Source: Flavobacterium psychrophilum
Lineage (GTDB): Bacteria; Bacteroidota; Bacteroidia; Flavobacteriales; Flavobacteriaceae
Assembly: GCA_945890865.1 (NCBI GenBank)
Contig: CAMDDB010000003.1
Location: forward strand, 62,001 to 126,000
DNA: 64,000 nucleotides
Reading direction: 5' to 3'
Below are positions 1,947-58,886 of this stretch, piece by piece. The notes below the pieces were generated by a model that did no database searches, was not told the origin of the DNA, and was given only the letters and a program-made list of their open reading frames with translations. The position numbers were made by a program, and so were the translations under genes. Numbering within the stretch: the stretch's first letter is position 1; every line of letters starts with the position of its first letter.

Positions 1947-2106
1947 AACATTACTTTTTAAGTTACTAAATTTGGGACAGTATAAAAAAGTAATAGTATT
2001 AAATAGGCTTCTCTTTAAGATTAATTAGGACAAATTTAACATAAAAAAGAAATAAAATCCAAATTTAATTTAAAAATTTAACGTTTAAGATGCAATAATA
2101 AAACAA

Positions 2107-3810
2107 TTATTGTTCAATTATTAATTTTTCCTTATAAACTTGCTGATCAGTTTGAATAAGAACAACATAAACACCATTAGGTAATTTAGAAATATCCAAG
2201 TTACTTTTGGGATGAGGTAACTCAAGCATTATTTGGCCTAAAAGCGAAAATATTTTCACATTTTTAATGTCAATATTTTCATCAAAAGTTAGAACATCTC
2301 GCGCTGGGTTTCTTAAAATCACATTTTTATCATTAGAAAAATCATCTAAATTGAGATTACAATTGTTTCCTACAACATACTGATAATATTGCGTTACAGA
2401 CATACCGCCAGCATATGCAAATTTAACAGCATAGTTGATTGAAGCGCCGGGAGTTTGTCCAGTTAGTGTGTGGGTAAAAACTCGACCGGATACATTTGTC
2501 ATTTGAGTTTCTGCAAAAGGAGACTGACGCCACAAGTAAGCTATTAGACCCACTTTATCAGTATCTAATAACTCGTAGGTCACTTTAACACTATTTGTAC
2601 CTAAGGTTTCATAGGCATAATTATATCCCGAAGTAAATGAGCCTTGTTGTGCTAAAGAGCTAGTACCTGCGCAGCCCACAACTCCTGTTGTACTTGCATT
2701 TAAAATAATAGAATTATTAGCGGCGTTATTACCAGACAAATCACTGGCGTTAACTGAAAACGAATAACTTGTATTTGGGCTCAAACCTGATATTATCACC
2801 GATTTTTGTACTCCAGACGTACCAGCAGCAGAAGTAGAAGTAGTTCCATAAGTTACTCCATACACTAATGACCCCGAATTATCAACACCATTTAACAAAA
2901 GTTCTATTGAAGAACTGGTAATTGCCCCTATTGTAGCAGTAAAATTGGTGGGTATTTGTGTATCTGCTTGGATATTTTGATATACACGTACATAATCAAT
3001 TACCATAGAATCTTGACTAAAATTTGAATTTATAGTACCTGCCACACCTCCCATTGCTATGTTGAGTAATATATATTGATCTAAATTAAAGGGCCAGTTA
3101 CTTGGTGTTTTTACAGCAGGATTATAGGTGTAATAAGCAACGCCGTCTAATAAAAAAGTAATTTGAAAAGGTGACCAATTCATTGAATAAACATGGAAAT
3201 CAGTTCCTAAATTATTGGCAATAGTCCCTCCAATATTAACTGTACTTCCAGACGATGATGGCGTATGCAATGCACTTTGTACATAATTAATAGGTTGAGA
3301 AGGCGTTATTCCGTGTTCCATAATATCAATCTCACCACAAGCAGGCCAATTAGTAGTACCAAAAGCTGAATCAAAATAACCTCCATCTTCATTGATATTT
3401 TTGCCTAACATCCAAATAGCTGGCCAAGTCCCTTGTTGAATGGGCAACTTTGCTCTAACATCTATTCTTCCGTATCTGAAGGCAAACTTTGAATTCAAAC
3501 GTGCAGAAGTAAATTGTTTTGTAAAACCTTGTGAAGTATACGGTTGCCGAATGGCTACAATATTTAATGCCCCATTATTAACGGATGAATTGGCTAATTC
3601 ATTTGTGTAATGCTGTACTTCGCCATTGAACCAACTTCCTCCTGCTGGAATTTGTGTTTGATGATGCCATTTTAAAGAATTTACAGCACCATTAACATTA
3701 AATTCATCTGACCAAACTAAATCAGAATACACCACATCTACTTGGCTGTAGGAATAAGTTAACCCTAACCAAAAAATTGCGAGTAGTTGTTTTATACTTA
3801 ATTTAGACAT
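2107..3810 (-). CDS. Secreted GH16 beta-glucanase with FN3 domain and T9SS sorting domain
   Basis: A 567-residue enzyme likely to cleave beta-1,3-glucan (laminarin). The order is signal peptide (about 1-22), GH16 catalytic domain (about 28-280), fibronectin type III (about 286-376), an uncharacterised beta-rich module (about 377-480), and a type A T9SS C-terminal sorting domain (about 488-567, with LPNGVYVVLIQT near the end). The GH16 active site reads EIDIME, giving E160 (nucleophile), D162 and E165 (acid/base). The T9SS tail predicts export to the cell surface or medium. It is the last gene of the five-gene operon, 8 bp after the GH3 gene. Substrate specificity is inferred from family and neighbours. 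Confidence 0.93.
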   Translation of the reverse strand: MSKLSIKQLLAIFWLGLTYSYSQVDVVYSDLVWSDEFNVNGAVNSLKWHHQTQIPAGGSWFNGEVQHYTNELANSSVNNGALNIVAIRQPYTSQGFTKQFTSARLNSKFAFRYGRIDVRAKLPIQQGTWPAIWMLGKNINEDGGYFDSAFGTTNWPACGEIDIMEHGITPSQPINYVQSALHTPSSSGSTVNIGGTIANNLGTDFHVYSMNWSPFQITFLLDGVAYYTYNPAVKTPSNWPFNLDQYILLNIAMGGVAGTINSNFSQDSMVIDYVRVYQNIQADTQIPTNFTATIGAITSSSIELLLNGVDNSGSLVYGVTYGTTSTSAAGTSGVQKSVIISGLSPNTSYSFSVNASDLSGNNAANNSIILNASTTGVVGCAGTSSLAQQGSFTSGYNYAYETLGTNSVKVTYELLDTDKVGLIAYLWRQSPFAETQMTNVSGRVFTHTLTGQTPGASINYAVKFAYAGGMSVTQYYQYVVGNNCNLNLDDFSNDKNVILRNPARDVLTFDENIDIKNVKIFSLLGQIMLELPHPKSNLDISKLPNGVYVVLIQTDQQVYKEKLIIEQ

Positions 3811-3818
3811 TATATGTT

Positions 3819-6101
3819 TTATTTTAATTCAATTTCTGTTTCTAACAATTGCTCTGAACTACCGCCAACAAATACTTTAAAAATACCGGGTTCTGCCTCC
3901 CAAATTTTGTTTGCTGTGAAATAGGCTAACATATTTTGGTCGATAGAAAAGGATACCACTTTCGTTTCAAATGGTTTTAAGGTCACCATTTCAAATCCTT
4001 TTAACTCTTTAACCGGTCGAGTAAAACTTCCTACCATATCTCGAATGTACAATTGAACAACTTCTTTGCCTTCTACAGCGCTATTATTCTTAAGTTCCAC
4101 TTGAACTTGAATGGTTTCACCTTTTGAAAAAGTTGAACTTGAAACTTTCAATTGAGAATATTCAAATTTGGAGTAACTTAAACCGTGACCAAATGCGAAC
4201 AAAGGTGAATTTTTCTCATCAATATAATGCGACCAAAAGACAATTTCAGGTTCATTGGCAGCAGGTCGTCCTGTATTTTTATGATTGTAATAAATAGGTA
4301 ACTGTCCTACATGTCTCGGAAAAGTCATAGGCAACTTTCCACTCGGATTATAATCACCATAGAGCACTTGAGCGATTGCATTTCCGCTTTGAGTTCCTAA
4401 ATGCCATGTTTCAACAATTGCAGGGATATGTTGAGCAGCCCATGGAATGGCTAATGGTCTTCCATTTGTAAGAACCAAAACAATATTAGGATTGGCTTTG
4501 TAAACTGCTTCTAAAAGTTCTTGTTGTACACCAGGCAACCCAATATCGGCTCTACTTCTACCTTCTCCTGATTGCAATCCGTGCTCTCCTAACACCATGA
4601 CCACGACATCTGCTTTTTTTGCAGTTGCAATTGCTTCAGCAAAACCTGATGTATCGGTTGTATTAATTTTTGTTTCCCACATAAATTGTGTTCTCCCAAT
4701 GGCAACATCGGCACCTTTTGTATAGATCAATTCGTTGTTAGGATAATTTTTCATTCCTTCCAAAACAGATATTGCAGTATTGTCGTCGGCAGCTATTCGC
4801 CAACTTCCAAGTGGACTTGTTTTATCGTTAGCTAAAGCTCCAATTAAGGCTATTTTTTGCCCAGATTGCTTAATCGGTAGCAATTGATTTTCATTTTTAA
4901 GCAAAATAATTGACTTTTTAGCAATATCTAAAACACCTTCATGAAATTCATTTTTTCCAACGGTTGCTTTTTCAACGGATTCATCACAATATTTATAAGG
5001 ATTATCAAATAATCCTAATTCAAATTTTACTCGCAATACGCGACGCACTGCATCATTAATAATTGCAATATTAACAGTACCTGCTTCTATCAATGTTTTT
5101 AAATGGTCAACATAAGCATAGGATTCCATATCAATATCTGAACCTGCTTTAATTGCAATTTCGGCAGCATGTTTACTGTCTTGTGCATAACCGTGAGGAA
5201 TCATTTCATTAATTGATCCCCAGTCGGAAACTACAAAACCTTGAAAATTCCAGGATTTTTTTAAGAGATCACGTTGGAGATAAGTATTACCTGTAGCAGG
5301 AATTCCATTTAGATCATTAAAGGAATTCATAAATGTTTTTACACCCGCTTCGCTCGCTGCTTTAAATGGAGGTAATATAGCATTATGCAACACATCTTCA
5401 CTTACTACAACCGTATTATAATCACGACCCGCCTCGGCTAATCCATAACCTGCAAAGTGTTTGGCACAGGCAATAATGTTTTTATTGGAAAGGTTTCCTT
5501 GAAAACCTTGAATTCTTGCTTTTGCAATTAATGATCCTAGGTAAGGATCTTCACCAGCGCCTTCCATTACCCTACCCCAACGGGCGTCTCTGGAAATATC
5601 AACCATGGGAGCAAAAGTCCAATTGATCCCTACAGCTGCAGCTTCTTCAGCAGCAATTGCAGCAGATTTTTGTATGGCTTGGAGGTCCCAACTTGCAGCT
5701 TCTGCTAAAGGTATAGGACTTATAGTTTTATATCCATGAATGACATCAAATCCAAAAAGTAAAGGGATTCCTAGTCGGGTTTGCTCAACGGCAATTTTTT
5801 GCAAGGCTTTTACATCAGCGACACCTTTTACATTGAGCATAGAGCCAACAAGACCATTTTTTAAATCAGCATACTTTTTAGCGGCGTGTCCTTCTTTAGG
5901 TACTGGACCGGTAACATCCCAAAAACCATTATATTGATTGAGTTGTCCTACTTTCTCCTCTACAGTCATTAGACTCAAAATTGAATCTACACGCTTTTCG
6001 ATTGGGCTTGTAGCTTCTGTAAGACCCCGTTTTGGTGTCGCACAAGACAATACAAGTAAAAGAAGAACTGAAAATGAATATTTAATATTTTTATGTATCA
6101 T
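3819..6101 (-). CDS. bglX: GH3 beta-glucosidase, lipoprotein (BglX type)
   Basis: A 760-residue GH3 enzyme that should release glucose from the non-reducing end of beta-glucan oligosaccharides. The N-terminus ends in LVLSC with the lipid-anchor cysteine at residue 20. The (alpha/beta)8 domain carries KHFAGYG (K214-H215) and the nucleophile D293 in GFVVSDWGS. The alpha/beta sandwich and a C-terminal fibronectin III-like domain (about 650-755) follow, the usual BglX order and length. It lies 8 bp before the secreted GH16 and 51 bp after the GH16 lipoprotein in one operon, so it probably finishes degradation of their products in the periplasm. Confidence 0.94.
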   Translation of the reverse strand: MIHKNIKYSFSVLLLLVLSCATPKRGLTEATSPIEKRVDSILSLMTVEEKVGQLNQYNGFWDVTGPVPKEGHAAKKYADLKNGLVGSMLNVKGVADVKALQKIAVEQTRLGIPLLFGFDVIHGYKTISPIPLAEAASWDLQAIQKSAAIAAEEAAAVGINWTFAPMVDISRDARWGRVMEGAGEDPYLGSLIAKARIQGFQGNLSNKNIIACAKHFAGYGLAEAGRDYNTVVVSEDVLHNAILPPFKAASEAGVKTFMNSFNDLNGIPATGNTYLQRDLLKKSWNFQGFVVSDWGSINEMIPHGYAQDSKHAAEIAIKAGSDIDMESYAYVDHLKTLIEAGTVNIAIINDAVRRVLRVKFELGLFDNPYKYCDESVEKATVGKNEFHEGVLDIAKKSIILLKNENQLLPIKQSGQKIALIGALANDKTSPLGSWRIAADDNTAISVLEGMKNYPNNELIYTKGADVAIGRTQFMWETKINTTDTSGFAEAIATAKKADVVVMVLGEHGLQSGEGRSRADIGLPGVQQELLEAVYKANPNIVLVLTNGRPLAIPWAAQHIPAIVETWHLGTQSGNAIAQVLYGDYNPSGKLPMTFPRHVGQLPIYYNHKNTGRPAANEPEIVFWSHYIDEKNSPLFAFGHGLSYSKFEYSQLKVSSSTFSKGETIQVQVELKNNSAVEGKEVVQLYIRDMVGSFTRPVKELKGFEMVTLKPFETKVVSFSIDQNMLAYFTANKIWEAEPGIFKVFVGGSSEQLLETEIELK

Positions 6102-6152: not shown

Positions 6153-6965
6153 TTACTCGTATATTCTGATATAATCTACTAACATGGTTTGAGGAAATGG
6201 TGTTTCACTATTTGGTGAACCTGGTAGGTTTCCTCCTACAGCAACATTTAAAATGATATAAAATGACTCATTAAATACCCATTCCCCTGGAACATTATCA
6301 GGAGTAATTTGATTATATAATTTATCATCTACATAAAAATTTATATAATTTTCATCCCATTCAATTCCAAAAACGTGAAAATCGGTATCAAATCTACTAT
6401 TAGGTAAAGTATAGGTTTTGCCTATTGAAGCCCCACCATAATAACCTGGACCATGAACCGTTCCAAAAAATTCTGTAGGTTTACTTCCTACATATTCCAT
6501 AATATCAATTTCTCCACATTGTGGCCAAATAACCGTGTCAGAATTAGCGCCCAACATCCAAAATGCTGGCCATAAACCTTTACCTCTGGGTAGCTTTATA
6601 CGCGCCTCAATGCGGCCATATTTTTTTTCAAATTTACCCTTTGTTAAAATACGAGCAGAAGTATACGATTTACCCATATATTGTTCATTTCTTGCTGTGA
6701 TATGTAGCATTCCATTTTCAACTTTAATATTGGATGGACGACTGGTATAATATTGTAGCTCATTATTTCCCCAACCATTAGAACCTGTGCCAATGTTGTA
6801 ACTCCATAAATTTGTATCTAGAGCACCATCCACATTAAATTCATCACTCATTACTAATTGTGTCTTTGTGACTACTGTTTGTTTTTCGTCTGTTGAACAA
6901 CCACTAACAAAGAAAGCCATGATTACTAAACAGATGAAACTATTTTTACTTATTAATACGTTCAT
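6153..6965 (-). CDS. GH16 beta-glucanase (laminarinase), lipoprotein
   Basis: A compact 270-residue GH16 enzyme, essentially only the catalytic domain. A lipobox ending in VSGC (C23) predicts an outer-membrane or periplasmic lipoprotein. The active site GEIDIMEYVG gives E152, D154 and E157; DEFNVDG, WPAFWMLGA and a final VDYIRIYE are further family hallmarks. It is a second GH16 next to the larger T9SS-exported enzyme, so the operon can attack glucan at two locations. It lies 11 bp downstream of the glycan-binding lipoprotein gene. The beta-1,3-glucanase call is from the family subgroup, not proven. Confidence 0.93.
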   Translation of the reverse strand: MNVLISKNSFICLVIMAFFVSGCSTDEKQTVVTKTQLVMSDEFNVDGALDTNLWSYNIGTGSNGWGNNELQYYTSRPSNIKVENGMLHITARNEQYMGKSYTSARILTKGKFEKKYGRIEARIKLPRGKGLWPAFWMLGANSDTVIWPQCGEIDIMEYVGSKPTEFFGTVHGPGYYGGASIGKTYTLPNSRFDTDFHVFGIEWDENYINFYVDDKLYNQITPDNVPGEWVFNESFYIILNVAVGGNLPGSPNSETPFPQTMLVDYIRIYE

Positions 6966-6976
6966 TTTACTTTATT

Positions 6977-8386
6977 TTAATTATGAAAATATATATTATC
7001 TACATATAATGTCGAGTTATCGCCACCTAAGAATATTATTTGAGCTAATTGAGATCTACTATTAAGACCCGTCTGTTGCGATAATGGAATTTCAAATGAC
7101 ATCCAACTTTGTGAAATTAAATTATTTGATGCTACATAGGGCAGACTTTGTGAATCATCAACTCCATATACTCCATTGGGTCCAAAATCAGTTAATCTTA
7201 TTTCTAATCGTCTTCCTGGCGAAATTGGACCAGGTATATAAACATCAAAATGAAGATGCGTCATAGAAGTTGCATTTACTGTTGGATTGCTAAATTCTAT
7301 TCCCACAAAATTGAAATTTGTATAATTCAAAACATTATCACCGGCAACTGAAAAATCATTAGATTGTGTAGTTTGCCACGGAGCCCAATAACCGTTATAA
7401 TAAGTTACAGGAATATTGGAGTAAGCATCTGAAAAAATTGAAATTACATTGGCAGGGTTAAGCGTTGGCCTTGGCGCATTTGTAAAAGTACCCGCACAAT
7501 TGATGGTTAAACTACCAGTTGCAGGCTGATTGTTGAATGTTGCAGTTATAACAGCTGTACCCGCTGCTAATGGGGTAACCACTCCTGCATCATTAACTGA
7601 TGCCACTGTTGGATTGGAAGAAGTAAAATTCAAAAATGCCGGACTAATAGCTACCGATTGATTACTACCATTTGGCATATTAAAAGTAGTAGTAACACCC
7701 GTAATTGGGGTTTGAACGCCTACAAAAGTAGTTCTTGCTACATTTGAACCATTCATAATAGAAGCCTGTAATGGAAGTATCGTTCCTAATTTTTCAAATT
7801 TTAATTCATCGATCCATATCGAATATCCTCTTCCATTCGTTCCTTGCGTACCTGCAGCATATCGAAACATTCCTCTTTCTTTTACTAATTTTGAAGCATC
7901 GGGAATAGGAATTATAAATTTGGTCCATGCAGTACCTACACTTACATCTTTAATCGTAGTAATGTATTTATTCGGGTAAAAATCTTCCCCAAAACCAAAT
8001 TCGCCGATGGTTACTCCTTGAGAAGCTTTAGCATAAAAGGTTAACGCATCAAACTCTGTCAAATTACGACCTGCACCATCCACTCTAAAAATTGCCCCAG
8101 CATAATTTCCCTCTGGATCATCATCATTAGGGATATCAAAACGCATGGAAGCAGAACCTTTAAAGCTGACTTGAGAATCTACAGACCAAGCTGATGGTTT
8201 TGAGCCACCATAAGGGAAGTAAAAATCGGAACCCATCGCTACTGGAGCGTCAATGAAAATTTCAGCTATTTTTGGAAAAGTAGCATCTTTTGCATCGTCA
8301 GAAATTTCTCTTTCGCAATTAACATTAGATAGAAAAACCAATACTAATAGCAAACTAATTTTTAATTTATTACTTATATTTTTCAT
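6977..8386 (-). CDS. Surface glycan-binding lipoprotein with two lectin-like domains and an Ig-like (BIG2) linker
   Basis: A 469-residue lipoprotein (FLSNVNC, lipid cysteine C24) with no catalytic motif. Three parts are visible: a CBM11/CIA30-like beta-sandwich (about 36-205, ending in WIDELKFEKLG), a bacterial Ig-like BIG2 domain (about 210-295, with ASVNDAGVVTPLAAGTAVIT), and a C-terminal domain (about 300-469) that opens NAPRPTLNPANVISIFSDAY and closes YVDNIYFHN. The last domain is the same type as the repeats in the secreted protein at 14658-17627. Its position between the barrel fusion and the GH16 lipoprotein suggests it captures glucan at the surface, filling the role of a SusD/SGBP. 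Binding itself is inferred. Confidence 0.8.
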   Translation of the reverse strand: MKNISNKLKISLLLVLVFLSNVNCEREISDDAKDATFPKIAEIFIDAPVAMGSDFYFPYGGSKPSAWSVDSQVSFKGSASMRFDIPNDDDPEGNYAGAIFRVDGAGRNLTEFDALTFYAKASQGVTIGEFGFGEDFYPNKYITTIKDVSVGTAWTKFIIPIPDASKLVKERGMFRYAAGTQGTNGRGYSIWIDELKFEKLGTILPLQASIMNGSNVARTTFVGVQTPITGVTTTFNMPNGSNQSVAISPAFLNFTSSNPTVASVNDAGVVTPLAAGTAVITATFNNQPATGSLTINCAGTFTNAPRPTLNPANVISIFSDAYSNIPVTYYNGYWAPWQTTQSNDFSVAGDNVLNYTNFNFVGIEFSNPTVNATSMTHLHFDVYIPGPISPGRRLEIRLTDFGPNGVYGVDDSQSLPYVASNNLISQSWMSFEIPLSQQTGLNSRSQLAQIIFLGGDNSTLYVDNIYFHN

Positions 8387-8401: not shown

Positions 8402-11400
8402 TTATTTACCAATGTTGATGTGAATATACGTTCTAATTTCCCATTCTGATCCATTATTGAAACCTACTGGACTTAATTCTGGTACAGGTGGATAGGTGTT
8501 TGCAGGAACATATGTAGGTGAATATCTTGGAGAATATTGATCTAAAGCTCTCCAAATACCCATAATACCAATTCTAGTATCCGGTAAAATAAACCAATTC
8601 GGTTTTCCTAATGATGTTGAAATATCAATAGCGGTTTGAACCGGAAAAGTTAAGTTAAAATCTTTATGGTAGTCATAAGGCCCCCAATCGTTAAATTTTA
8701 ATGAAGTGACTAATTTAACTTTATTATAAATCATACGTAAATCACCACCCATTCTATTAATAGTTCGTTCTGAATCTCCATTAGCTTGACCATTACCAAA
8801 ATATAAATTAGCAATAAGGCCCATATTTGAAGTTAATTTTGATACGATACGGGTATTGGATTCCCACAAATCTTGAGCAGGTGCCGATTTTTCAAAAGCA
8901 AAGGGCGTTCTGTTTTCTAAGAACCCAATGGCAGCATCCATAGTAGTAGGTAAATGGCGGTATACAAAACCTGTACTAAATGCAAATTTTGCATCTTCTA
9001 ACATGTCATTATTCCATTCATACATCCAGGTTCCTGGCGTTGGATCATAAGTAACTAAAAGTTCTCCTCCCACTGTTTCACGATTAGATCGTACAATAAA
9101 TGGATCATCTAGAATATTTCTTAATCTACCCGGAGCATCTACTCCATTTGGCATGGCATCTAGTAAAGGTTTTTGCCATAAGAAGTTAGGTGCAATTTGT
9201 AAATTGGAAGTAACATTATAGGTTAAACCTGCCAAAACATTCATTTGATTGCCACTTCCGCTTTCTTTTAGTTTCCAACCTGTATAGGTTTGAGTGTAAT
9301 CGCCACCTGGATTAGCAACTAAACCATATATTGCTCCTTGCGTATACACATTGAATTTTCCTTTTGAAAACGTAAATTTAGCTTTACCCCCCCAATTGTC
9401 TATGTTTTTTATTTTGTCGACCTTCACATTATCGCCATCCATCATTTGAAATTCTCTTCCAATGAGTGGCTGACCTCCCCAAATACCTCCAAATTCAATA
9501 CCTAAATTACCTAGTTTTGTTTGAAAGTAAACTGTTGCTCTTCTTGTTTTGGGTTGTGGAATAAATATAGATGTTACTGCTTGTGAAGCACTTGAAATAT
9601 CTTCATGATAAACTGCAGCTGTATTGAAAACCCCAATTTTTCTATTATATTTTAATAAATAAGCAGGATTGGCTCCCCACCAAAGTTGGGGTCCGAAAGC
9701 TGCTTTCAATCCATTCAAACTTCCTTTGCCATCAATTTCAAAACCTGAAGTCTCACCATTGTAAATATCTAAATTTGGACCGTAATTTGCTTCAGGATAT
9801 AAACCAAAGAAATCTCCTTCGTATCCCCAGTGGTAATGACCTGTTCTATAAAATCCTCGAATTTCAAAATCTTTTGAGGTCCATTTATAGGAAGCATTAT
9901 AAATTTGTACTCGGTTTACATCTGTAGTAAATACCTCTCCGTCAGTTGACATTAATCGTTGTGCTCTACCTCTATTTTCATAGAAAATTTCATTGATTGG
10001 ATTTTCAGCTACATTCCCTAAAATATTAAAATTTACATTGGCTTTCATGTTTGCAGATGGATTTCCTTCTACTCCAATGAAATAGGACTGCATCGTATCA
10101 AAACCGATTTTATTTGGATATTTATTGGTCTCCGGATCGTCTACGCTTGGCGTAGTTAATAAACTTCCCCCTGTGTTAAAAGTTGTAAATTCGGCTCTAA
10201 GATTACTGATTTTAATTTTGTCTCCTTCATTAGCTGCTAATGCTGCTTTATCACTGCGTGCACGCAGTGAAGCATCAATGATATCCGCTGTTTCAAAATG
10301 AGTTTTTAATCCTGTAGAACTATCACTAGACTGATATGGATTGAATTTGTGGATTTCTTTTAAAACATAATAAGCTGCTCTTGGATACAATTGATAATGT
10401 CCTAGTTCATTTGAAGGTCCTTTTGCACATATACCAAACCATTCTTCATTCATGTTATTTTGACCTTCAGTGTAGTCTTTTTGATAGCCACCATTTGACC
10501 ATGATGCGTTTGAATCATGAACATCTAAACCAGATGTTTGTCCGTATTTCCACCATCCATCACTAAATTGAAAGGTAAATCCTCCAATTGCAACACCAGA
10601 TTTACCAGCTCCTGATACATTTTCATATATTTCTTTCCAATTACTTTTCAAGTAAAAAGCTTGCGCATTCTGATCTTCACTGTTGGATAAAACATTGAAT
10701 ACATCTGCTCCAAATTCTGTAAACAACACCGGTTTTCCATATTCTTTTTTAACGCGATCAAATAAATCACCAAAAGAAGCACCACGGTATACATTTGTTC
10801 CATATATATCAATATCCTTACACTCTTCAGCTATAATATTCAAAAATAACAAGTCACCATTACAAATCGCCATTGGGTGATTCGTATCAATAGCTTTCAT
10901 TTTAAGAACTGCTTCATTAAATAATTTGTACATCGATCGAGCTCTTACCGTTGATTTACGATCTTTTACAGGAATGTTTTCTGTTTCAGCACCGTCCCAG
11001 AACAAACCATAATTATTTTCATTTCCTAACAAAAATAAAAGTAAACCTCTGGTGTCTTTATAGTCAGAAGCCATTTGCGTAACTTCTTTTAATAATAGCG
11101 CTTTAGTTTTTGAATCTGCATATTCAGTATTGGGTTTCCATACACCATCTATGGTTAATCCATATCTTCCAAAAGAATGGTTAAGCATGGTATAGATTCC
11201 AAAATTGTCATAAATATATTCAATCCATTTTTTAGGCATACCCGAATAGACCCTTATGGTATTTACACCCATGTTTTTCAAAAGTCCCATTTCACTTTCC
11301 AAAGCTATTTTGATAAAATCATCAGATTGATTCCATAAACTATAGGAATAATTAGTTCCGATTGGATAATAATCCCAATTCATTCCGTTAACCATAAAAT

Positions 11401-11518
11401 CTTTACCGTTAACCTTAAGTTTCATTTGTGAATTACTGTTTTCTACAACAACTTTATCTGCCTGGGCAAAGCCATTGCTGGAAAAAGAAAAAAGAAAAAA
11501 GAGAATAATTTTTTTCAT
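8402..11518 (-). CDS. Fusion of a clan GH-A glycosidase domain to a predicted outer-membrane beta-barrel
   Basis: A 1038-residue protein with a signal peptide (cut near residue 20). Residues about 25-395 form a TIM-barrel glycosidase: NWDYYPIG and NTIRVYSG are followed by the acid/base E167 in LGNEN and the nucleophile E268 in FTEFG, the clan GH-A arrangement (closest to GH2/GH5-like enzymes; the exact family is unclear). From about 430 to the end the sequence alternates polar and hydrophobic residues with many short aromatic-bounded strands and turns, like an outer-membrane beta-barrel, finishing IRTYIHINIGK. It is the first gene of the operon. A glycosidase tethered to its own barrel could cut and import oligosaccharides. 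The barrel is a reading of strand pattern only. Confidence 0.75.
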   Translation of the reverse strand: MKKIILFFLFSFSSNGFAQADKVVVENSNSQMKLKVNGKDFMVNGMNWDYYPIGTNYSYSLWNQSDDFIKIALESEMGLLKNMGVNTIRVYSGMPKKWIEYIYDNFGIYTMLNHSFGRYGLTIDGVWKPNTEYADSKTKALLLKEVTQMASDYKDTRGLLLFLLGNENNYGLFWDGAETENIPVKDRKSTVRARSMYKLFNEAVLKMKAIDTNHPMAICNGDLLFLNIIAEECKDIDIYGTNVYRGASFGDLFDRVKKEYGKPVLFTEFGADVFNVLSNSEDQNAQAFYLKSNWKEIYENVSGAGKSGVAIGGFTFQFSDGWWKYGQTSGLDVHDSNASWSNGGYQKDYTEGQNNMNEEWFGICAKGPSNELGHYQLYPRAAYYVLKEIHKFNPYQSSDSSTGLKTHFETADIIDASLRARSDKAALAANEGDKIKISNLRAEFTTFNTGGSLLTTPSVDDPETNKYPNKIGFDTMQSYFIGVEGNPSANMKANVNFNILGNVAENPINEIFYENRGRAQRLMSTDGEVFTTDVNRVQIYNASYKWTSKDFEIRGFYRTGHYHWGYEGDFFGLYPEANYGPNLDIYNGETSGFEIDGKGSLNGLKAAFGPQLWWGANPAYLLKYNRKIGVFNTAAVYHEDISSASQAVTSIFIPQPKTRRATVYFQTKLGNLGIEFGGIWGGQPLIGREFQMMDGDNVKVDKIKNIDNWGGKAKFTFSKGKFNVYTQGAIYGLVANPGGDYTQTYTGWKLKESGSGNQMNVLAGLTYNVTSNLQIAPNFLWQKPLLDAMPNGVDAPGRLRNILDDPFIVRSNRETVGGELLVTYDPTPGTWMYEWNNDMLEDAKFAFSTGFVYRHLPTTMDAAIGFLENRTPFAFEKSAPAQDLWESNTRIVSKLTSNMGLIANLYFGNGQANGDSERTINRMGGDLRMIYNKVKLVTSLKFNDWGPYDYHKDFNLTFPVQTAIDISTSLGKPNWFILPDTRIGIMGIWRALDQYSPRYSPTYVPANTYPPVPELSPVGFNNGSEWEIRTYIHINIGK
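10251..10270. repeat. Perfect 20-bp palindrome inside the glycosidase/barrel fusion gene
   Basis: The arm TCACTGCGTG is followed at once by its exact reverse complement. It lies in codons for residues about 417-423, at the join between the glycosidase and barrel parts, and is more GC-rich than its surroundings. No function is known to me. Confidence 0.6.
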
Positions 11519-11714
11519 TTGATTATTTAAAATTTGGTGGATACTTTTAATTAATTTATTAAGTTATAAAAATAGAATAATATCAATAGCGATAGCAATA
11601 ATTAACCTCTACAAAAATTTAACAACTACATAAGCCCGCTATCACTTAAAAACAAAGGGCTAATCGGTTAAATTGACATTATTTATTCAAAAAAAATAAT
11701 ACGTTGTTAAGGCA

Positions 11715-11725
11715 ATGTATAGTTT
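11715..11725 (+). promoter_or_regulatory. Candidate operator ATGTATAGTTT upstream of the glucan operon
   Basis: The 11-mer lies 197 bp upstream of the operon's first start codon. A weaker copy, TGTTAAG, sits exactly 11 bp earlier. The same 11-mer occurs twice in the control region of the secreted binding protein (17710-17720 inverted, 17829-17839 direct). Binding by the neighbouring LuxR-type regulator is an inference. Confidence 0.4.
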
Positions 11726-11746
11726 ATTCGATGAAAATTTACAGTA

Positions 11747-14560
11747 TTAAATAGCCAACAAATACTCAACTAAGCCCATTTCATGCGGAAGATTCATTTT
11801 CTTACGCAAACGATAGCGCTTTATTTCAATACTTCGAACAGAAATACTAAGTAAAGGAGCAATTTCTTTAGAGGATAAATTCAATCGAAGATAGGCACAT
11901 AGTCTTAAATCATTAGGCGTTAATGCAGGATGACTTTCTTTAACTTTTTTCAAGAAATTATTATCAGCACTATCAAAGGCTTCTTTAAAAACATTCCAAG
12001 TATTTTCTTCTTTTACATTTTTATTAATTGTGGATATGACAGATTTAATACTTCTATTTGTTGTACTATCGGTTGAGCTTTTTAAATCGCCTTTAATGAT
12101 ATTTAAAAGTTCTGTTTTCTTAATAAGATTCATCGTTGAAACTGCCAATTCTTTATTTTTCTTATCTACATCCTGAATCAACTGTTCATTCTTGATTTTC
12201 ATTATTTTTTGCTCATTTTCCAACTCTTTGAGCTCTAATAAAATATTATTTTCTGTTATAATTTTTTGATGTAATTTCTCATGATATTCAGTATATAATT
12301 TATGAATATAATAGCCTAATACGATCAATAGTAGAAAATAAAACAACTTTGCAAATGTGTTAGCATACCATGGTTTTCGAATAACGAATGAAAAAGTAGC
12401 TACATTATCAGTTATCGAATTAGCTACTTTTGCTCTCACACTAAAAGTGTAATTTCCTGCAGGTAAGTTTTCAAAAATGACTTGCGAATTAAATGACCAA
12501 TCGCTCCATTCATTATTCAAACCCTCTAATTTATATTGATATTCGGCATTGATGTATTTATCATATTCTGGCACAGTAAAATGAAAGGCGAGATTATTTT
12601 GATCGTGAGATAAAGTTACTTCGTCATCAATTGATAAATTATTAGGTTTTGAATTAACAACCGTATTAGTAATTCTAAAAATAGAAACTTTATTATTATT
12701 AAATTTAAAATCATCATTCTTCAAAATATAGTAGCCATCAGTAGTTCCTATTAAGTAGTTATTATCCTCAAGTTGAAGTATGTTTTCATAACCTGGCATA
12801 GAATTCGTTAAAGAAGACGGAATGGGCAAACTACTTTTCTTAAGCTCTGAAGATAGTTTTCCAGAAGAGTAATAATGGATATAATTTTTTGTAAAAAACC
12901 AAAGCTTGTTCGATTTATCAACGATCATTTTTCCAGTAACATACTCATCATTTTGAAAAATAGCACTTAACGATTCGTCTTTTATAAATTTTTTGGTTGG
13001 GGTATTAAGTTTAAAAACACCCTCTTTTGAAGCATAATAAATCGAATTATTATATTTCACTAAAGACGCATTTTTTCCTTTCTTAGGGCTTTTGTATTTA
13101 GTGATAGCCGAAGCATTCGAAATGGATGAATCAATTGTAAATTTATAAACTCCTTTGTATTCATGACTTACATAGATTTCGTTTTTTCCTAATATTTCAA
13201 AATGCTTAGACGAATAATCAAATCCCTTTATTTTATTTTTATATACCCAGTTATTACTCTGTTTTTCCAAGACTGAAATTCCATTATAATTACCTTGCAA
13301 AATAAAATTTGAATTGGCGCCATACGATTCAAAACTCCATGTACCAGAGCCCGAATAAATTAGATTTGCATTTGCACCATTAACAATATAAGTTCCCGAA
13401 TCATGACCGCAAAACAAGGTGTTTTGATAGGAAAAAAGCGACCAAACTTGACCTTTGGTATTCTGAACAAATTCAAACTTAGACATAGAATTCAAATCTT
13501 TAAAAAAGAGCCCTTGATTGGTTCCAATGTATAATTTATTGTTATGGGTAACCGAAGTATATATAGCGCCTAGAACTCCCGTGTTATCAAGATAACTGTT
13601 AATGGGTGATTTGATATTAAGACAATTGATCCCGTTATCCAATCCGATCCATAAATTTTTATCTAAATCTTCAAAAAGTGACAAAGCTGTATTATTACTT
13701 AACCCCGAATTTTGGGTAATGTGATACAACTTTTTGCCCTCTTTTGATATAATAAAAATGCCGTTAGAAATAGAACCTAACGCAATACTTTGATCCGATA
13801 ATAATTGACTACTATAAATGTTAGTTTGTTGAATTTGTGCATCAATATCGGTTACAAATTTTGTGAGTAACCCATTATTATACTTATAAATTCCTTGTTT
13901 TTGAGTTACTAATAATAAACCATTAGTTGTTTCAAAAATAGTTATCAATTTATTCTGATTGATTACTTGACTACTTAAAAATAATTTGCTTTTGCCTTGA
14001 TCGATTTCAAACAACCCATCCTTTGTTTGAAAATAAATACCATTAGTCGTTTTAAATGCTTTGATAATGGTGCTTTTAGGCTCAATAATTGTAAACAATT
14101 TTGATTTGGTGTTGTAGGCGTAGATTTTTTCTAACGATTGAAAAAGAATATAATTATCAAAAGGAAAAATACCCCAAAATTGTTCGTCGTCTTTAATTTT
14201 AGATTTTATAGAATTACTCAAAGACGTATAAATCAATTCCCCATTTTCAGCACGTTCCCAATACCCAAATTCCATGAAGGCACCGGTATAAATTTTATCA
14301 TTGATACATTTTACCGAGCGAATAATAGTTTCGTTGGGTGATGGATTCAATATCCATTTTGAACCATTAAATTCTAATAAGCCTTCATTATTTGCAAAAT
14401 ACATGAACCGTTGATTGTCTTGTGAAATCATCCAGTTTTGAATTCCTGCATTATATACTTCTTTAGAATATTTTACTATTGGCGGCAATTGTTGCGCCTG
14501 ATGAATAGCAATTGAAAATAATAGTAATAAACAACTATATTGGACTTTTAAAAAATGCAT
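11747..14560 (-). CDS. Membrane-bound sensor/regulator: beta-propeller, Y_Y_Y domain and LuxR-type helix-turn-helix
   Basis: A 937-residue one-component regulator. A signal peptide is followed by a long periplasmic region (about 25-650) of propeller-type repeats (for example DKNLWIGLDNGINCL), a Y_Y_Y domain (about 655-727), one membrane helix (about 738-752, LFYFLLLIVLGYYI), a coiled coil (about 758-800) and a C-terminal LuxR-like helix-turn-helix (about 878-925, LTPNDLRLCAYLRLNLSSKE). It resembles hybrid two-component sensors of polysaccharide loci but has no kinase or receiver domain, so signalling to DNA would be direct. It sits between the operon and the binding-protein gene, its probable targets. 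A -7-like TATCTTTA lies at 14579-14586. Confidence 0.88.
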   Translation of the reverse strand: MHFLKVQYSCLLLLFSIAIHQAQQLPPIVKYSKEVYNAGIQNWMISQDNQRFMYFANNEGLLEFNGSKWILNPSPNETIIRSVKCINDKIYTGAFMEFGYWERAENGELIYTSLSNSIKSKIKDDEQFWGIFPFDNYILFQSLEKIYAYNTKSKLFTIIEPKSTIIKAFKTTNGIYFQTKDGLFEIDQGKSKLFLSSQVINQNKLITIFETTNGLLLVTQKQGIYKYNNGLLTKFVTDIDAQIQQTNIYSSQLLSDQSIALGSISNGIFIISKEGKKLYHITQNSGLSNNTALSLFEDLDKNLWIGLDNGINCLNIKSPINSYLDNTGVLGAIYTSVTHNNKLYIGTNQGLFFKDLNSMSKFEFVQNTKGQVWSLFSYQNTLFCGHDSGTYIVNGANANLIYSGSGTWSFESYGANSNFILQGNYNGISVLEKQSNNWVYKNKIKGFDYSSKHFEILGKNEIYVSHEYKGVYKFTIDSSISNASAITKYKSPKKGKNASLVKYNNSIYYASKEGVFKLNTPTKKFIKDESLSAIFQNDEYVTGKMIVDKSNKLWFFTKNYIHYYSSGKLSSELKKSSLPIPSSLTNSMPGYENILQLEDNNYLIGTTDGYYILKNDDFKFNNNKVSIFRITNTVVNSKPNNLSIDDEVTLSHDQNNLAFHFTVPEYDKYINAEYQYKLEGLNNEWSDWSFNSQVIFENLPAGNYTFSVRAKVANSITDNVATFSFVIRKPWYANTFAKLFYFLLLIVLGYYIHKLYTEYHEKLHQKIITENNILLELKELENEQKIMKIKNEQLIQDVDKKNKELAVSTMNLIKKTELLNIIKGDLKSSTDSTTNRSIKSVISTINKNVKEENTWNVFKEAFDSADNNFLKKVKESHPALTPNDLRLCAYLRLNLSSKEIAPLLSISVRSIEIKRYRLRKKMNLPHEMGLVEYLLAI

Positions 14561-14657: not shown

Positions 14658-17627
14658 CTATTCTTTGATGAATTTTGTTGAAGAAGTTATCCCCTCTACA
14701 ACCGTTTTCACTACATAAATCCCTGAATTTAAACCAGAAACATCTAAGGCAACTGATGTATTATTCAATTCTCTGTTCATTACTTCTTGACCTAATACAT
14801 TATAAACCGTAATAGCTTGAATTGAAGCTGTACATTCTATGTTTAAAATATTAGACGTAGGATTTGGATATAACTTCACTTTTGCTACTTCAAAGTTAGA
14901 AGCACCTAGTGTAGTGTTTTTATGGAAATATACATTATCATAATAAACGATTCCTAAGTTGGTTGAAATAATAAATTCAGCTAAATTGTTTCTTGCAGCA
15001 CTACCACCACCTGCGATTGTAAAATCTGCTAATGGAATATCAAAAGACAACCAAGTTCCTGGATTTGGATCTGTAGCTGGTAATTGATTTGGTGATGGTG
15101 TAGCATTAGTAATATTTCGTTCAATAGCATTTAGCTCTGCATTTGAAGCATTATGATTCGATAATTTTAAACTAATGTTTCTCAATGCCATAGTTTGAAT
15201 TGGAGTCCAAATATCAATATGGAAATGCGTAAAAGATGTTGCATCAAAACTACCTGCTCGGAAATTAATTCCTTCACAACCTCCCACTAAATCAGATCCT
15301 TGGTAAGGTGGTACTGTTGTAGCATTTCCTGCAACGATTCCACTTCCAAGACCCGTAATTCTATTCATTGCAGTTGCTGCATTTCCTCCTATTAAAAATT
15401 GAGTTGTAACACCAGGACACCAAGAGGTATCATAAGAGTTTAAATCGCCACTAGCGGCAAAAGTTGTTAATGGAGTGTATGCATTACTGTAAATTGATTT
15501 TACGTCAGCTGCGGGTCTATTTGGAGGAGTTGGTGCAGCAACAGTTGGTGTTGGAATAACTGGTGGTGTACCTAACGGGCCTCTAATATTATCTACATAA
15601 AATGTTCTTGGTGATCTTGTTACAGTTGTAAATGCTGTAGCACCTTGAGCCCAATACGTATGAATTACAAAACCAGAATAGGTTCCATTTGCTAAAGCAG
15701 CTTGGCCATCAAGAGCGGTGTTGAACGTAAAGGATACTGTTTGCCATGTATTTCCTCCTGTATGAGTAGCAGAAGCTGCAACAATACCAGGACCACCCAC
15801 ACCTCCAGTAACTTTAACTAAGAATGTAATAGGATCAGCAGAAAGAACATCCATTGTCATGGTTTTTGAATCTGTTAAACTAACTAATGAAGTTAAATTT
15901 AAGTTGATACCTTGCCATACTTCTCCTGTAGTATTTCCTACTATTTTTAAAACTTTAGTAGTATTTGAACCTGTACCATTTTCAACAACTGGTGCAGCCA
16001 TTCCTCCGAAAGGAGCTCCATTAACACCACCACTTTCAGTTGTTTCAAAACCTAATACAAGTGGCAATTGCTGAGGAGTTTTCCAGAAATAAATATTATC
16101 TAAATAGATATTAACAGGAACAGTACTACCAGCTCCATTAGCTGCAAATTTCAATTGTATAATATTATTCCAAGTCATTCCTGTAAAAGAAGCTTTTGGA
16201 ATATCTACACTGTACCATTGTCCTTGAACGTGATTAATAGTTACCAAAACTTCTGCTGCTCCAGTGCCACTATTAATAGGACTTACTTGAACGATAGAAC
16301 TTGTTGGAGCTGCATTACACCAAATATCAACATGTAAATATTCCATAGTTGATAAGTTGGTAGCTGTTAATTCTGTACCTTGGTAATTAAAGTTGGTGTA
16401 TGCCAAAATATTATTACCCGTTGTTACAGAAAAAGTAGGATTAACCGTACCCGATTGACCCCAACCTGGATTTAAATTAGTTGCAATTGTTGGATACGCA
16501 TCACTAAATATTGAAGCTACATTAGCTGCTAAATGTGTTGGTGTTGGTGCGTTAGTAGGTGGCGATGTAGGGTTAGCTGGTGTTTTCCAAAAATAAATAT
16601 TATCTAAATAAATATCCACTGGAACAGTACTTCCTGCACCATTAGCCGCAAATTTTAATTGTATAATATTATTCCAAGTCATTCCAGTAAAAGAAGCTTT
16701 TGGAATATCAACACTATACCATTGTCCTTGAACGTGGTTGAGAGTTACCAAAACTTCAGCTGCTCCAGTACCACTATTAATAGGACCTACTTGAACAATA
16801 GAACTAGTTGGTGCTGAATTACACCAAATATCAACATGTAAATATTCCATAGCTGATAAATTGGTAGCAGTAACCTCTGTTCCTTGATAATTGAAATTGG
16901 TGTATGCTAAGATATTATTTCCAGTTGTTACTGTAAATGTAGGGTTAACACTACCTGACTGACCCCAACCTGGATTTAAATTAGTTGCAATTGTTGGGTA
17001 AGCATCACTAAAAACGGAAGCAACGTTTGCTGCTAAACGAGTTGGTGTAGGTGCATTTGTTGTTGGAACAGTTGATGGTGGAGTTTTCCAAAAATAAATA
17101 TTATCTAAATAAATATTTACAGGAACAGCACTTCCCGTGCCATTAGCCGCAAATTTTAATTGAATAATATTATTCCAAGTCATTCCTGTAAAAGAAGCTT
17201 TAGGAATATCAACACTATACCATTGGCCTTGAACGTGATTAATAGTTACCAAAACTTCTGCTGCTCCAGTACCACTATTAATAGGACTTACTTGAACAAT
17301 AGAACTTGTAGGAGCAGCACTACACCAAATATCAACGTGTAAAAATTCCATTGCTGATAAATTGGTTGCAGTAACCTCTGTTCCTTGATAATTGAAATTG
17401 GTGTACGCTAAAATGTTGTTTCCAGATGTTACTGTAAATGTTGGATTAACAGTTCCTGACTGACCCCAACCTGGATTCAAATTAGTTGCAATACTCGGAT
17501 AAGCATCACTAAAAACAGATACCACATTAGCAGCCAACCTTGTAGGTGTTGGAGCATTTGTAGTGGGTTGTGCAAAACCTAACGCACTAATGAGCAGGAA
17601 TGCAAACAAATGAGTAATTTTTTTCAT
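14658..17627 (-). CDS. T9SS-secreted multi-lectin protein with three near-identical glycan-binding repeats
   Basis: A 989-residue secreted protein (signal peptide cut after GFA, residue 19) with no recognisable catalytic site. Three tandem repeats of about 167 residues (25-191, 192-359, 360-518) each open NAPTPTR/HLAANV.SVFSDAY and end YLDNIYFWKTP. A different beta-sandwich of CBM4/9-like appearance follows (about 521-690), then a diverged fourth copy (about 700-903, YYDNVYFHKN), and a type A T9SS sorting domain (about 916-989, starting KLYPNPTSN). The repeats match the C-terminal domain of the lipoprotein at 6977-8386. It probably holds glucan at the cell surface or in the medium. It has its own promoter and terminator. 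Confidence 0.85.
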   Translation of the reverse strand: MKKITHLFAFLLISALGFAQPTTNAPTPTRLAANVVSVFSDAYPSIATNLNPGWGQSGTVNPTFTVTSGNNILAYTNFNYQGTEVTATNLSAMEFLHVDIWCSAAPTSSIVQVSPINSGTGAAEVLVTINHVQGQWYSVDIPKASFTGMTWNNIIQLKFAANGTGSAVPVNIYLDNIYFWKTPPSTVPTTNAPTPTRLAANVASVFSDAYPTIATNLNPGWGQSGSVNPTFTVTTGNNILAYTNFNYQGTEVTATNLSAMEYLHVDIWCNSAPTSSIVQVGPINSGTGAAEVLVTLNHVQGQWYSVDIPKASFTGMTWNNIIQLKFAANGAGSTVPVDIYLDNIYFWKTPANPTSPPTNAPTPTHLAANVASIFSDAYPTIATNLNPGWGQSGTVNPTFSVTTGNNILAYTNFNYQGTELTATNLSTMEYLHVDIWCNAAPTSSIVQVSPINSGTGAAEVLVTINHVQGQWYSVDIPKASFTGMTWNNIIQLKFAANGAGSTVPVNIYLDNIYFWKTPQQLPLVLGFETTESGGVNGAPFGGMAAPVVENGTGSNTTKVLKIVGNTTGEVWQGINLNLTSLVSLTDSKTMTMDVLSADPITFLVKVTGGVGGPGIVAASATHTGGNTWQTVSFTFNTALDGQAALANGTYSGFVIHTYWAQGATAFTTVTRSPRTFYVDNIRGPLGTPPVIPTPTVAAPTPPNRPAADVKSIYSNAYTPLTTFAASGDLNSYDTSWCPGVTTQFLIGGNAATAMNRITGLGSGIVAGNATTVPPYQGSDLVGGCEGINFRAGSFDATSFTHFHIDIWTPIQTMALRNISLKLSNHNASNAELNAIERNITNATPSPNQLPATDPNPGTWLSFDIPLADFTIAGGGSAARNNLAEFIISTNLGIVYYDNVYFHKNTTLGASNFEVAKVKLYPNPTSNILNIECTASIQAITVYNVLGQEVMNRELNNTSVALDVSGLNSGIYVVKTVVEGITSSTKFIKE
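16077..17555 (-). repeat. Three tandem coding repeats of about 502 bp
   Basis: Repeat 1 is about 17055-17555, repeat 2 about 16551-17054 and repeat 3 about 16077-16550. The encoded segments differ at only a few positions (for instance SVFSDAYPS/T, VSPINSG versus VGPINSG), and the DNA is also closely similar. Such similarity implies recent duplication or ongoing homogenisation, and makes the copy number prone to change. Confidence 0.92.
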
Positions 17628-57169: not shown

Positions 57170-57898
57170 TTAGTCTTTAGAAGTTGATTTAACTGCTAAG
57201 TTATAAATAACCAATCCAAATCCAATTTTGTTAATTGCATCAGCAATGTTGTAAGCAACGTCTACACTTCCTTTTCCTAAGAAATCAGTGTACCATCCGT
57301 CAGTTCCTAACATATATCCTAAAGGATATATAGCCCAACCTACTAATACAAACCAACATAAAATTTTGTGAGATGCTAATACATTACCACCAGCTGCTGC
57401 TGCTAATTTAGAAGCTTCTCCAAACCAAATTTCATAAACAATTACAAAATAAGCTAAACCTGAGATGAATCCCCAAAGCGCAGCTTGATCACTAAAAATT
57501 GTTTCTCCAAAGTAACCAGTTACTAACATTACTATCGATAGAAAAATCATTTTCCACAATAAGTTTTGTTTAGCACCTGCAACTTTAAGAATTAAATAAA
57601 ACTCTAAACACATTAATGGCACAGTTAATGCCCAATCAACGTATCTAAAGAAAGTTGGTGATTCTTGAAACGCATTCCAATAATCACGCATGTAAAAATA
57701 ATGTACAGCAGCAATAAAAGTAATCAAACCTGAAACCAATACTGATGTACGCCACTTTTTATCAAATTGACTCAATGATAAAAAGAAAAATGCAGAAGCA
57801 GCCATCATAGCCATACTTCCAATAAAAAAGGTAAACCCAACATAATCATTAGGTAACATTTTTGTTACACTAGATGAAAGAAACATTAAATTTGTCAT
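57170..57898 (-). CDS. Proteorhodopsin (light-driven proton pump, green type)
   Basis: A 242-residue seven-helix retinal protein. Helix C reads RYVDWALTVPLMCLEFYLIL: proton acceptor D88, T92 and donor E99 give the DTE set of outward proton pumps. The spectral-tuning residue (position 105 in proteorhodopsin) is M96, predicting green absorption. The retinal lysine is K224 in IADAINKIGFGLV, with D220 as second counter-ion part, and H66 is the conserved helix-B histidine. The start at 57898 is chosen since the domain begins there; longer frames add an improbable AT-coded leader. It is divergent from blh, which makes the retinal. Confidence 0.95.
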   Translation of the reverse strand: MTNLMFLSSSVTKMLPNDYVGFTFFIGSMAMMAASAFFFLSLSQFDKKWRTSVLVSGLITFIAAVHYFYMRDYWNAFQESPTFFRYVDWALTVPLMCLEFYLILKVAGAKQNLLWKMIFLSIVMLVTGYFGETIFSDQAALWGFISGLAYFVIVYEIWFGEASKLAAAAGGNVLASHKILCWFVLVGWAIYPLGYMLGTDGWYTDFLGKGSVDVAYNIADAINKIGFGLVIYNLAVKSTSKD

Positions 57899-58019
57899 AA
57901 TAAAATAGTTTAAATTAGTTTGTTTGAGTAAATTTATAAAAATAAAATTTAAAATAAAAATTTTTTTGTTCATTTCTTTTATGAAACAGTTAAACAAGAA
58001 TTATAAAATTTAATTAAAA

Positions 58020-58886
58020 ATGAATAAATTATCAATAATAACAAGCTTTGCGGGACTTTGGCTAACTTCTTATTTATCAGATACAAATCAATTAATTTTT
58101 GGTTTTTTTTTAATATTTACCTTCGGAATTTTGCATGGAGCGAATGATTTGGTCCTAATTAATCAATTTGAAAGCAAAAAAAAGACAACTTTTATTAAAA
58201 TTATTGTGTCCTATGTCGTAATTGTAATTGGTTCTGTAATTTTATTTACGGTTTTACCCGTTTTAGCCTTAATAATGTTCCTTCTTGTGAGTGGATATCA
58301 TTTTGGAGAACAGCATTGGGCCTCCCTTATAGAAACTAAATCCAACTTTAGAAAATTGTTTGAACTTATTTATGGTCTATTTATTATTATAGTCCTATTA
58401 TATATAAATGCAGCAGAAGTAAGCAAAATAATTTTCGAAATTACAAACTTCAATTTTCCTTATTCTTATTTTTCAATAGCAGCAATAGCAATTAGTATAC
58501 TATTATTCATTGCTTCTTATGTTATGACGCTAAAAGAAAGAGATTTTAAAAATAATATTTTAGAGCAATTATTTTATTTAGTTGTACTGATAGTAATTTT
58601 TAAAAGCTCCAGTTTGATTTGGGGATTCACTATTTACTTTATTTTTTGGCACAGCATCCCTTCTTTAAATGATCAAATCATTTTCTTATATGGAAAATAC
58701 AATCTAAATCATTTTAAAGAATATGTCAAAACGGCCTTTTGGTATTGGATTATTTCGATAATAGGTATTACTGTATTGTACTTCCTTGCAAAAGATCTTA
58801 TTATTTTTGACGCTTTATTTTTCTCTTTTTTAGCGTCAATTACGTTTCCACATGCAATCGTAATATTAAATATGTTTAAAAAGTAA
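58020..58886 (+). CDS. blh: Brp/Blh family beta-carotene 15,15'-dioxygenase
   Basis: A 288-residue membrane protein with about seven helices that cleaves beta-carotene to two retinals, the cofactor of the divergent proteorhodopsin. Candidate iron-binding histidines are H39 (LHGANDLVL), H94 and H99 (GYHFGEQHW), H211 (FWHSIPSLNDQ) and H278 (FPHAIVI). Length and motif order fit the family. The carotenoid (crt) genes that provide the substrate are not in this window. The stop is adjacent to that of the convergent SDR gene, leaving no room for a terminator. Confidence 0.93.
   Translation: MNKLSIITSFAGLWLTSYLSDTNQLIFGFFLIFTFGILHGANDLVLINQFESKKKTTFIKIIVSYVVIVIGSVILFTVLPVLALIMFLLVSGYHFGEQHWASLIETKSNFRKLFELIYGLFIIIVLLYINAAEVSKIIFEITNFNFPYSYFSIAAIAISILLFIASYVMTLKERDFKNNILEQLFYLVVLIVIFKSSSLIWGFTIYFIFWHSIPSLNDQIIFLYGKYNLNHFKEYVKTAFWYWIISIIGITVLYFLAKDLIIFDALFFSFLASITFPHAIVILNMFKK

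Follow-up and report, generated by a model that had tools for sequence, protein, structure and literature searches.

How do beta-1,3-glucans enter a Bacteroidota cell at a locus that holds no SusC/SusD pair? Laminarin is among the largest algal sugar pools, and 5–15 Gt a year is the figure given for diatoms. Glycan uptake in Bacteroidota is usually ascribed to SusCD, whose two genes also serve to call the loci. The question is raised by a stretch of 64,000 nucleotides from Flavobacterium psychrophilum (assembly GCA_945890865.1, contig CAMDDB010000003.1, positions 62,001 to 126,000), referred to below as the window. Two SusC and two SusD queries gave no tblastn match in the 64-kb window at E ≤ 0.01, and the susC–susD pair that defines a SusCD-type polysaccharide utilization locus is lacking at the glucan locus studied here. 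The original prediction was that the first gene of this locus couples a glycosidase to an outer-membrane beta-barrel in one chain and could serve as a self-contained module that cuts and then imports glucan. The observation is confirmed, and its interpretation is partly supported. The gene and the parts of its product are as follows.

8402..11518, reverse strand: fused gene, 1038 amino acids, with signal peptide, GH-A glycosidase and outer-membrane beta-barrel (open reading frame, homologues and models)
11462..11518, reverse strand: signal peptide, residues 1–19 (MKK...FAQ), without a lipobox (from the sequence)
10334..11452, reverse strand: glycosidase TIM-barrel domain, residues 23–395
11018..11020, reverse strand: E167 (GNEN), predicted acid/base glutamate, invariant and aligned with GNE of 6pal
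10715..10717, reverse strand: E268 (TEFG), predicted nucleophile glutamate, invariant and aligned with TE of 6pal
10217..10333, reverse strand: poorly conserved helical connector, residues 396–434 (modal identity and pLDDT)
8405..10216, reverse strand: outer-membrane beta-barrel, residues 435–1038, about 24 strands (model, fold matches, periodicity and loop alternation)
9749..9832, reverse strand: predicted external loop 3, residues 563–590, aromatic and acidic (mean modal identity 0.90 in 101 sequences)
9665..9691, reverse strand: predicted external loop 4, residues 610–618, PQLWWGANP (mean modal identity 0.96)
9248..9325, reverse strand: predicted external loop 7, residues 732–757 (mean modal identity 0.89)
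8648..8686, reverse strand: predicted external loop 11, residues 945–957, WGPYDYHKDFNLT (mean modal identity 0.95)

The open reading frame translates into a chain that begins with MKKIILFFLFSFSSNGFAQ and ends with IRTYIHINIGK, the terminus already named in the original prediction, and a lipobox was scored in one of 83 fused homologues. The N-terminal domain has the TIM barrel, the acid/base glutamate after an asparagine (xNE) and the second glutamate downstream that mark clan GH-A. Both catalytic glutamates, as read before in the window protein, are invariant across 46 fused homologues and in 27 glycosidase domains, eight of them stand-alone; the GH-A fold with intact catalytic residues is shown computationally. 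The Pfam GH2 TIM-barrel model matches 36 of 46 family members (best E 3.7e-10), and the window protein itself matches no Pfam model at E ≤ 0.01. By sequence profile, the nearest solved relatives are GH158 and GH157 beta-1,3-glucanases, with remote matches to 6pal (E 1.1e-7) and 9oro (E 1.2e-4); on fold alone, GH5 and GH2 enzymes score level with GH158/GH157. Database names of family members are 'glycosidase' or 'glycoside hydrolase 5 family protein'. The connector has a mean modal identity of 0.55, against 0.77 and 0.73 in the two domains, and a pLDDT of 51–59.

Since the VIA-align rows for the full-length model span the glycosidase only, the barrel was modelled separately. The AlphaFold model of residues 396–1038, built with 101 sequences, has a pLDDT of 81.6, a pTM of 0.77 and about 24 long strands. 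Among the 50 rows listed by each program, its fold matches are outer-membrane barrels (AlgE, FimD, SusC, chitoporin), with low Foldseek TM-scores of 0.2–0.4. The connections between strands alternate between long and short, with means of 22.3 and 5.3 residues (Mann–Whitney p 1.4e-4). Hydrophobicity with a period of two residues occurs in 25% of barrel windows compared with 7% of glycosidase windows, and the barrel is free of cysteine. The predicted features, namely signal peptide, antiparallel strands, short periplasmic turns, long external loops and outer-membrane protein fold, are those of outer-membrane beta-barrels. The barrel, first recognized by eye, is shown computationally by these signs, and a reading of residues 430–1038 as soluble beta-sandwich domains is rejected in view of the barrel model and the outer-membrane fold matches. 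It has no matching Pfam family model, and a sequence search against solved structures gave nothing below E 1.

The barrel is conserved to a degree similar to that of the enzyme, with a mean pairwise identity of 0.643 compared with 0.681. Among 101 sequences, 89 barrel positions are invariant, including many tryptophan, tyrosine, arginine, aspartate and glutamate residues. External loops of outer-membrane barrels are usually variable. Here, four of the 12 predicted external loops have a conservation of 0.89–0.96 and are rich in aromatic and acidic residues, and the remaining eight lie at 0.54–0.77. By the parity of strands and loops, strand 1 would be linked to the glycosidase at its periplasmic end, which suggests that the modelled glycosidase lies in the periplasm beneath the pore and that glucan would be imported and then cut. 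Of the cut-and-import module first proposed, import is kept as something that we infer, and the order of its two steps would be reversed if this barrel topology is right.

Three known architectures were considered for the fused protein. The glycosidase sits where SusC and other TonB-dependent transporters have their N-terminal plug; the idea that it acts as the plug of a TonB-dependent transporter was rejected, as the plug and receptor Pfam models match none of the 46 members (E ≤ 0.01). A type Va autotransporter was rejected in the same way: the classical autotransporter barrel has 12 strands, the Autotransporter domain matches none of the 46, and about 24 strands are present here. A fimbrial usher, the class in which an Usher family sequence forms a 24-strand pore, was also discarded.

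How widespread is this layout, and which part came first? When each species was represented by one genome, a scan gave at least 591 related stretches, all true relatives, and the best 80 of these are 62–87% identical over most or all of their length. In the protein database, 5400 of 7998 scored candidates matched, of which 120 are listed. The large number of homologues goes far beyond chance and rules out a one-off or artefactual fusion; the fusion is shown computationally, and the two-part layout belongs to a conserved Bacteroidota family, not to a local oddity. The gene is present in one copy in 16 of 17 chosen genomes and in two copies in the other. One record (L016), titled Bifidobacterium breve, carries a Flavobacterium-type locus with a gene 78% identical to that of the window and is apparently a mislabelled bin.

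Presence was counted in a sample of 395 Bacteroidota genomes. Some match occurs in 48 (one, G252, broken, and five weak or distant), and in 33 most or the whole of the barrel is found within frames of at least 1028 residues. Stand-alone versions of both parts were sought; the glycosidase exists alone in nine genomes, and no clear stand-alone barrel was found in the 395, the exceptions being pieces in G252, G221 and G136. A large database holds 751 short barrel-bearing proteins, of which 120 are listed. These 120 look like fragments from their sequences: by a simple hydrophobicity test, one has a signal-like start, compared with 88 of 101 full-length fused proteins, and this one (P0136) begins inside the barrel.

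A tree was calculated for 66 glycosidase domains (53 fused, 9 stand-alone and 4 outgroup). The stand-alone label changes five times, each change being forced by well-supported branches, and seven of the nine stand-alone rows are nested among fused ones; therefore, several separate losses of the barrel are probable. For the stand-alone pair L134/L135, an origin before the fusion is the other possibility. In G136 (locus L137), about 89 positions around and beyond the stop codon of the stand-alone gene are still matched by the barrel profile, and 55 codons separate this stop at 3462 from the next in-frame stop at 3630, ahead of the GH149 start at 3736. At positions 2037–3629 of this locus, a short remnant of the start of a lost barrel comes after the stand-alone glycosidase. 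More distant glycosidases (about 24–33% identical; L139:7631-9028, L141:7213-8634 and similar) also occur, several of them in GH3/GH16 loci. The L139 glycosidase has an N-terminal carboxypeptidase-regulatory-like domain, which is another two-part layout of the glycosidase family.

The next gene, just downstream of the fused gene, encodes a lipoprotein, which we call CBMa.

6977..8386, reverse strand: partner lipoprotein CBMa, with lipobox cysteine, N-terminal domain, Big_2 domain (Pfam) and C-terminal module resembling a carbohydrate-binding module

In all 82 testable loci among 83 fused loci, the next open reading frame of at least 100 residues is a CBMa homologue that shares the strand of the fused gene and lies no more than 200 bp from it. 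Across the 395 genomes, the profile of the CBMa N-terminal domain (E ≤ 1e-40) matches all 33 barrel genomes and one of the 362 others, with weaker matches in two further genomes; CBMa adjoins the fused gene in 32 of the 33, the exception being G161, where it lies 11 kb away. Fisher's test gives 2e-47 for this co-occurrence, a value that overstates independence because the genomes share ancestry, and a better argument for the pairing comes from the losses that recur on the tree. Full-length CBMa homologues are present in all nine hand-picked fused genomes and in none of the nine stand-alone genomes, two of which hold C-terminal CBMa parts only. Barrel and CBMa were repeatedly lost together, and their pairing is shown computationally. 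Contrary to the proposal, the module is not self-contained, since CBMa accompanies the barrel in all 33 barrel genomes. CBMa gave no informative match in the PDB, and that it binds glucan is a guess.

Surface lipoproteins of Bacteroidota are marked by acidic residues after the lipid cysteine. In the CBMa of the window, this cysteine is followed by EREISDD, and it is invariant in 24 sequences. We scored at least two acidic residues after the cysteine as a surface-type signal, using only sequences with a recognized lipobox; the recognition is a simple pattern that missed many sequences, for example 39 of 82 partner proteins. The signal is found in 42 of 43 CBMa, 10 of 10 SusD and 52 of 61 GH16 proteins, compared with 2 of 39 GH17 proteins, 0 of 3 GH3 proteins and 1 of 5 close stand-alone glycosidases.

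The substrate is indicated by the remaining genes of the locus. In the window, these are the following.

6153..6965, reverse strand: GH16 endo-glucanase lipoprotein with a surface-type signal, CSTDEK (Pfam and signal comparison)
3819..6101, reverse strand: GH3 beta-glucosidase of BglX type, which stands in for GH149/GH17 at this locus (Pfam and NCBIfam)
2107..3810, reverse strand: GH16 protein with a T9SS type A tail (Pfam and NCBIfam)
11747..14560, reverse strand: regulator with Y_Y_Y and sub-threshold LuxR-type HTH matches, upstream of the fused gene (Pfam)
14658..17627, reverse strand: T9SS-secreted protein with tandem carbohydrate-binding-like modules (Pfam for the T9SS tail; repeats read from the translation)

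Among the 83 fused loci, in which the flanks counted reach 10 kb at most and are often shorter, GH16 is present in 76, the Y_Y_Y/LuxR regulator in 65, GH149 in 55, GH17 in 50, MFS in 43, GH3 in 11, SusC in nine and SusD in eight. The conserved locus is shown computationally. The identity of GH149 is based on 6hq6 (E 0), and the family is described as a beta-1,3-glucan or oligoglucan phosphorylase in PMC13188888. With GH149, GH17 and GH16 as neighbours, the likely substrate is beta-1,3-glucan of the laminarin type. The window locus is a variant with two GH16 genes and GH3 in place of GH149/GH17, and GH3 likewise replaces GH149 in some Muricauda clusters (PMC13188888). SusC/SusD and the fused gene lie close together in L037, L039, L044, L053, L059, L066, L071 and L080. 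Well-flanked loci contain 29 unlabelled open reading frames of at least 850 residues, none of which is SusC-like by eye. The position of the fused gene as the first of an operon is read from the gene order, since no match to a Bacteroidota promoter consensus was found in 11519–11746.

The T9SS-secreted protein has homologues in 42 of the 83 loci. Its 14658–17627 frame on the reverse strand contains three very similar tandem carbohydrate-binding-like modules and further modules, and the C-terminal module of CBMa recurs in tandem within such neighbours. Elsewhere in the window, a rhodopsin gene (57170–57904, reverse strand; Bac_rhodopsin E 1.9e-39) lies beside a beta-carotene 15,15'-dioxygenase gene (58020–58886, forward strand; E 1.9e-42), and their sequences suggest a probable pair of light-driven pump and retinal-forming enzyme.

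What, then, does the fused protein do? We consider it fairly probable that it is an outer-membrane entry pore for oligosaccharides of laminarin-type beta-1,3-glucan, with a periplasmic hydrolase at its inner mouth, which works with CBMa. In this mechanism, surface GH16 would cut the glucan polymer, and CBMa would capture the fragments and pass them to, or cap, the conserved external loops of the barrel. The fragments would cross the large channel, which has no TonB-type plug, and the fused glycosidase would cut them on arrival, so that an inward gradient is kept and back-flow is stopped. Periplasmic GH17 or GH3, the MFS carrier and the GH149 phosphorylase would perform the finishing steps. On the best reading, glucan entry would be largely independent of SusCD.

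Several observations weigh against such a pore. No plug is recognized, and any uptake would therefore be passive. Strand 1 shows no alternating hydrophobicity, and the full-length AlphaFold model has a pTM of just 0.55. The connector (residues 396–434) could in principle thread the pore and leave the enzyme outside. Distant stand-alone relatives carry surface-like signals in two of three cases, which counts against a periplasmic location. Nine genomes have the enzyme and manage without the barrel. SusC/SusD genes are near 7 of 51 fused loci with both flanks longer than 9 kb, so that the barrel is no strict replacement for them, and they occur in just two of eight inspected stand-alone loci.

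The main rival is that the barrel, like an autotransporter, passes or holds the glycosidase on the cell surface, where glucan would be cut for SusCD or other importers; we regard this as unlikely. The order of enzyme and then barrel is that of classical autotransporters, and strand 1 is preceded by the helical connector, which has about 39 residues and is weakly conserved. The SusC/SusD genes near some loci and the signals of the distant relatives also favour it, and the nearest characterized relative, BuGH158, is discussed as an endo-glucanase that feeds a TonB-dependent transporter, its own location not being predictable, in its paper (PMC7157763). However, about twice as many strands are present as in an autotransporter, autotransporter Pfam models match none of the 46 members, and an acidic surface signal is found in only one of the five close stand-alone relatives with a lipobox. 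Four external loops are unusually conserved for a translocator alone, and the strict pairing with CBMa would be left unexplained.

That the barrel is a mere membrane anchor, through which nothing passes and which only keeps the glycosidase at the outer membrane, is still less probable. Five of eight stand-alone relatives have a lipobox, as if one anchor had been swapped for another. However, 604 residues are costly for this purpose, the barrel is nearly as conserved as the enzyme and keeps its 89 invariant positions, and it disappears together with CBMa. The conservation of the barrel and its external loops and the strict CBMa pairing argue that the barrel is a specific pore served by a capture partner, not an anchor. 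Export, in which the barrel would secrete a cell-made glucan trimmed by the glycosidase, as in PgaB/PgaA or PelA/PelB for exopolysaccharides, is highly improbable, since the conserved neighbours (GH149 phosphorylase, GH17, GH3, GH16 and the MFS carrier) are catabolic and no glycan synthase was recognized by eye among the window open reading frames, no dedicated synthase search having been made.

Returning to the entry pore, we hold more tentatively, at a little under even confidence, that it represents a second, SusCD-independent class of glycan uptake in Bacteroidota, in which an enzyme–pore fusion, by cutting oligosaccharides at the inner mouth of the pore, pulls them inward under a capture lid formed by a surface lipoprotein other than SusD. 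Hundreds of species would have this class, which would have escaped notice because locus finders look for susC/susD and annotation stops at 'glycosidase'. If true, a second route would exist beside SusCD, through a pore–enzyme fusion with its own lipoprotein in loci most of which have no SusCD close by, many beta-glucan loci would have been missed by SusCD-based calling, and the protein would be a rare outer-membrane pore with an enzyme as part of its chain. Laminarin entry without SusCD becomes a testable question through one gene pair.

How does this system compare with known ones? In agreement with the original prediction, which knew of no described family that couples cutting and membrane passage in one chain in glucan loci, no published description of a fused glycosidase–barrel was found among the papers listed by searches of an open-access library. 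PMC11005184 gives background on the subject. PMC6298971 defines four laminarin locus variants and, in the text examined, makes no mention of the present gene. In Muricauda laminarin loci, a 'GH2 beta-glycosidase' is conserved alongside GH16, either GH149 or GH3, and a LuxR regulator (PMC13188888), and because the gene content of the locus is the same, this gene is probably the present fused gene. It is described there as a GH2 enzyme only, and the terms 'outer membrane', 'beta-barrel' and 'porin' are absent from the main text.

The enzyme part resembles GH158 and GH157 (BuGH158, 6pal; GH158(Pro), 9oro; LaGH157, 9fz9) in its TIM barrel, its aligned catalytic glutamates and its occurrence in beta-1,3-glucan loci, although the sequence similarity is remote, with 1.1e-7 as the best profile E value. 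BuGH158, which is characterized in PMC7157763, has a C-terminal Ig-like domain according to that paper, where the present protein has an outer-membrane barrel. As an arrangement, the closest parallel is the Formosa GH17–MFS fusion FORMB_24740, which also combines a glucanase and a transporter for laminarin in one chain; its paper states that no such transporter–CAZyme fusion had previously been described for other bacteria (PMC6246565). It consists of GH17 and an inner-membrane MFS carrier, whereas a different enzyme and an outer-membrane barrel are joined here.

The barrel part is comparable to maltoporin, chitoporin, OprD/Occ porins and AlgE, which are outer-membrane barrels that pass sugars or small substrates and are among the structural matches listed. 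These have fewer strands than the approximately 24 found here, lack a fused enzyme and show no sequence relation that we could find. Finally, compared with the SusC/SusD importers, the fused protein has no plug or receptor domain (Pfam, 46 members), about 24 strands in place of the 22 generally known for SusC, and an N-terminal catalytic domain, and its partner CBMa differs from SusD in having no SusD Pfam match.

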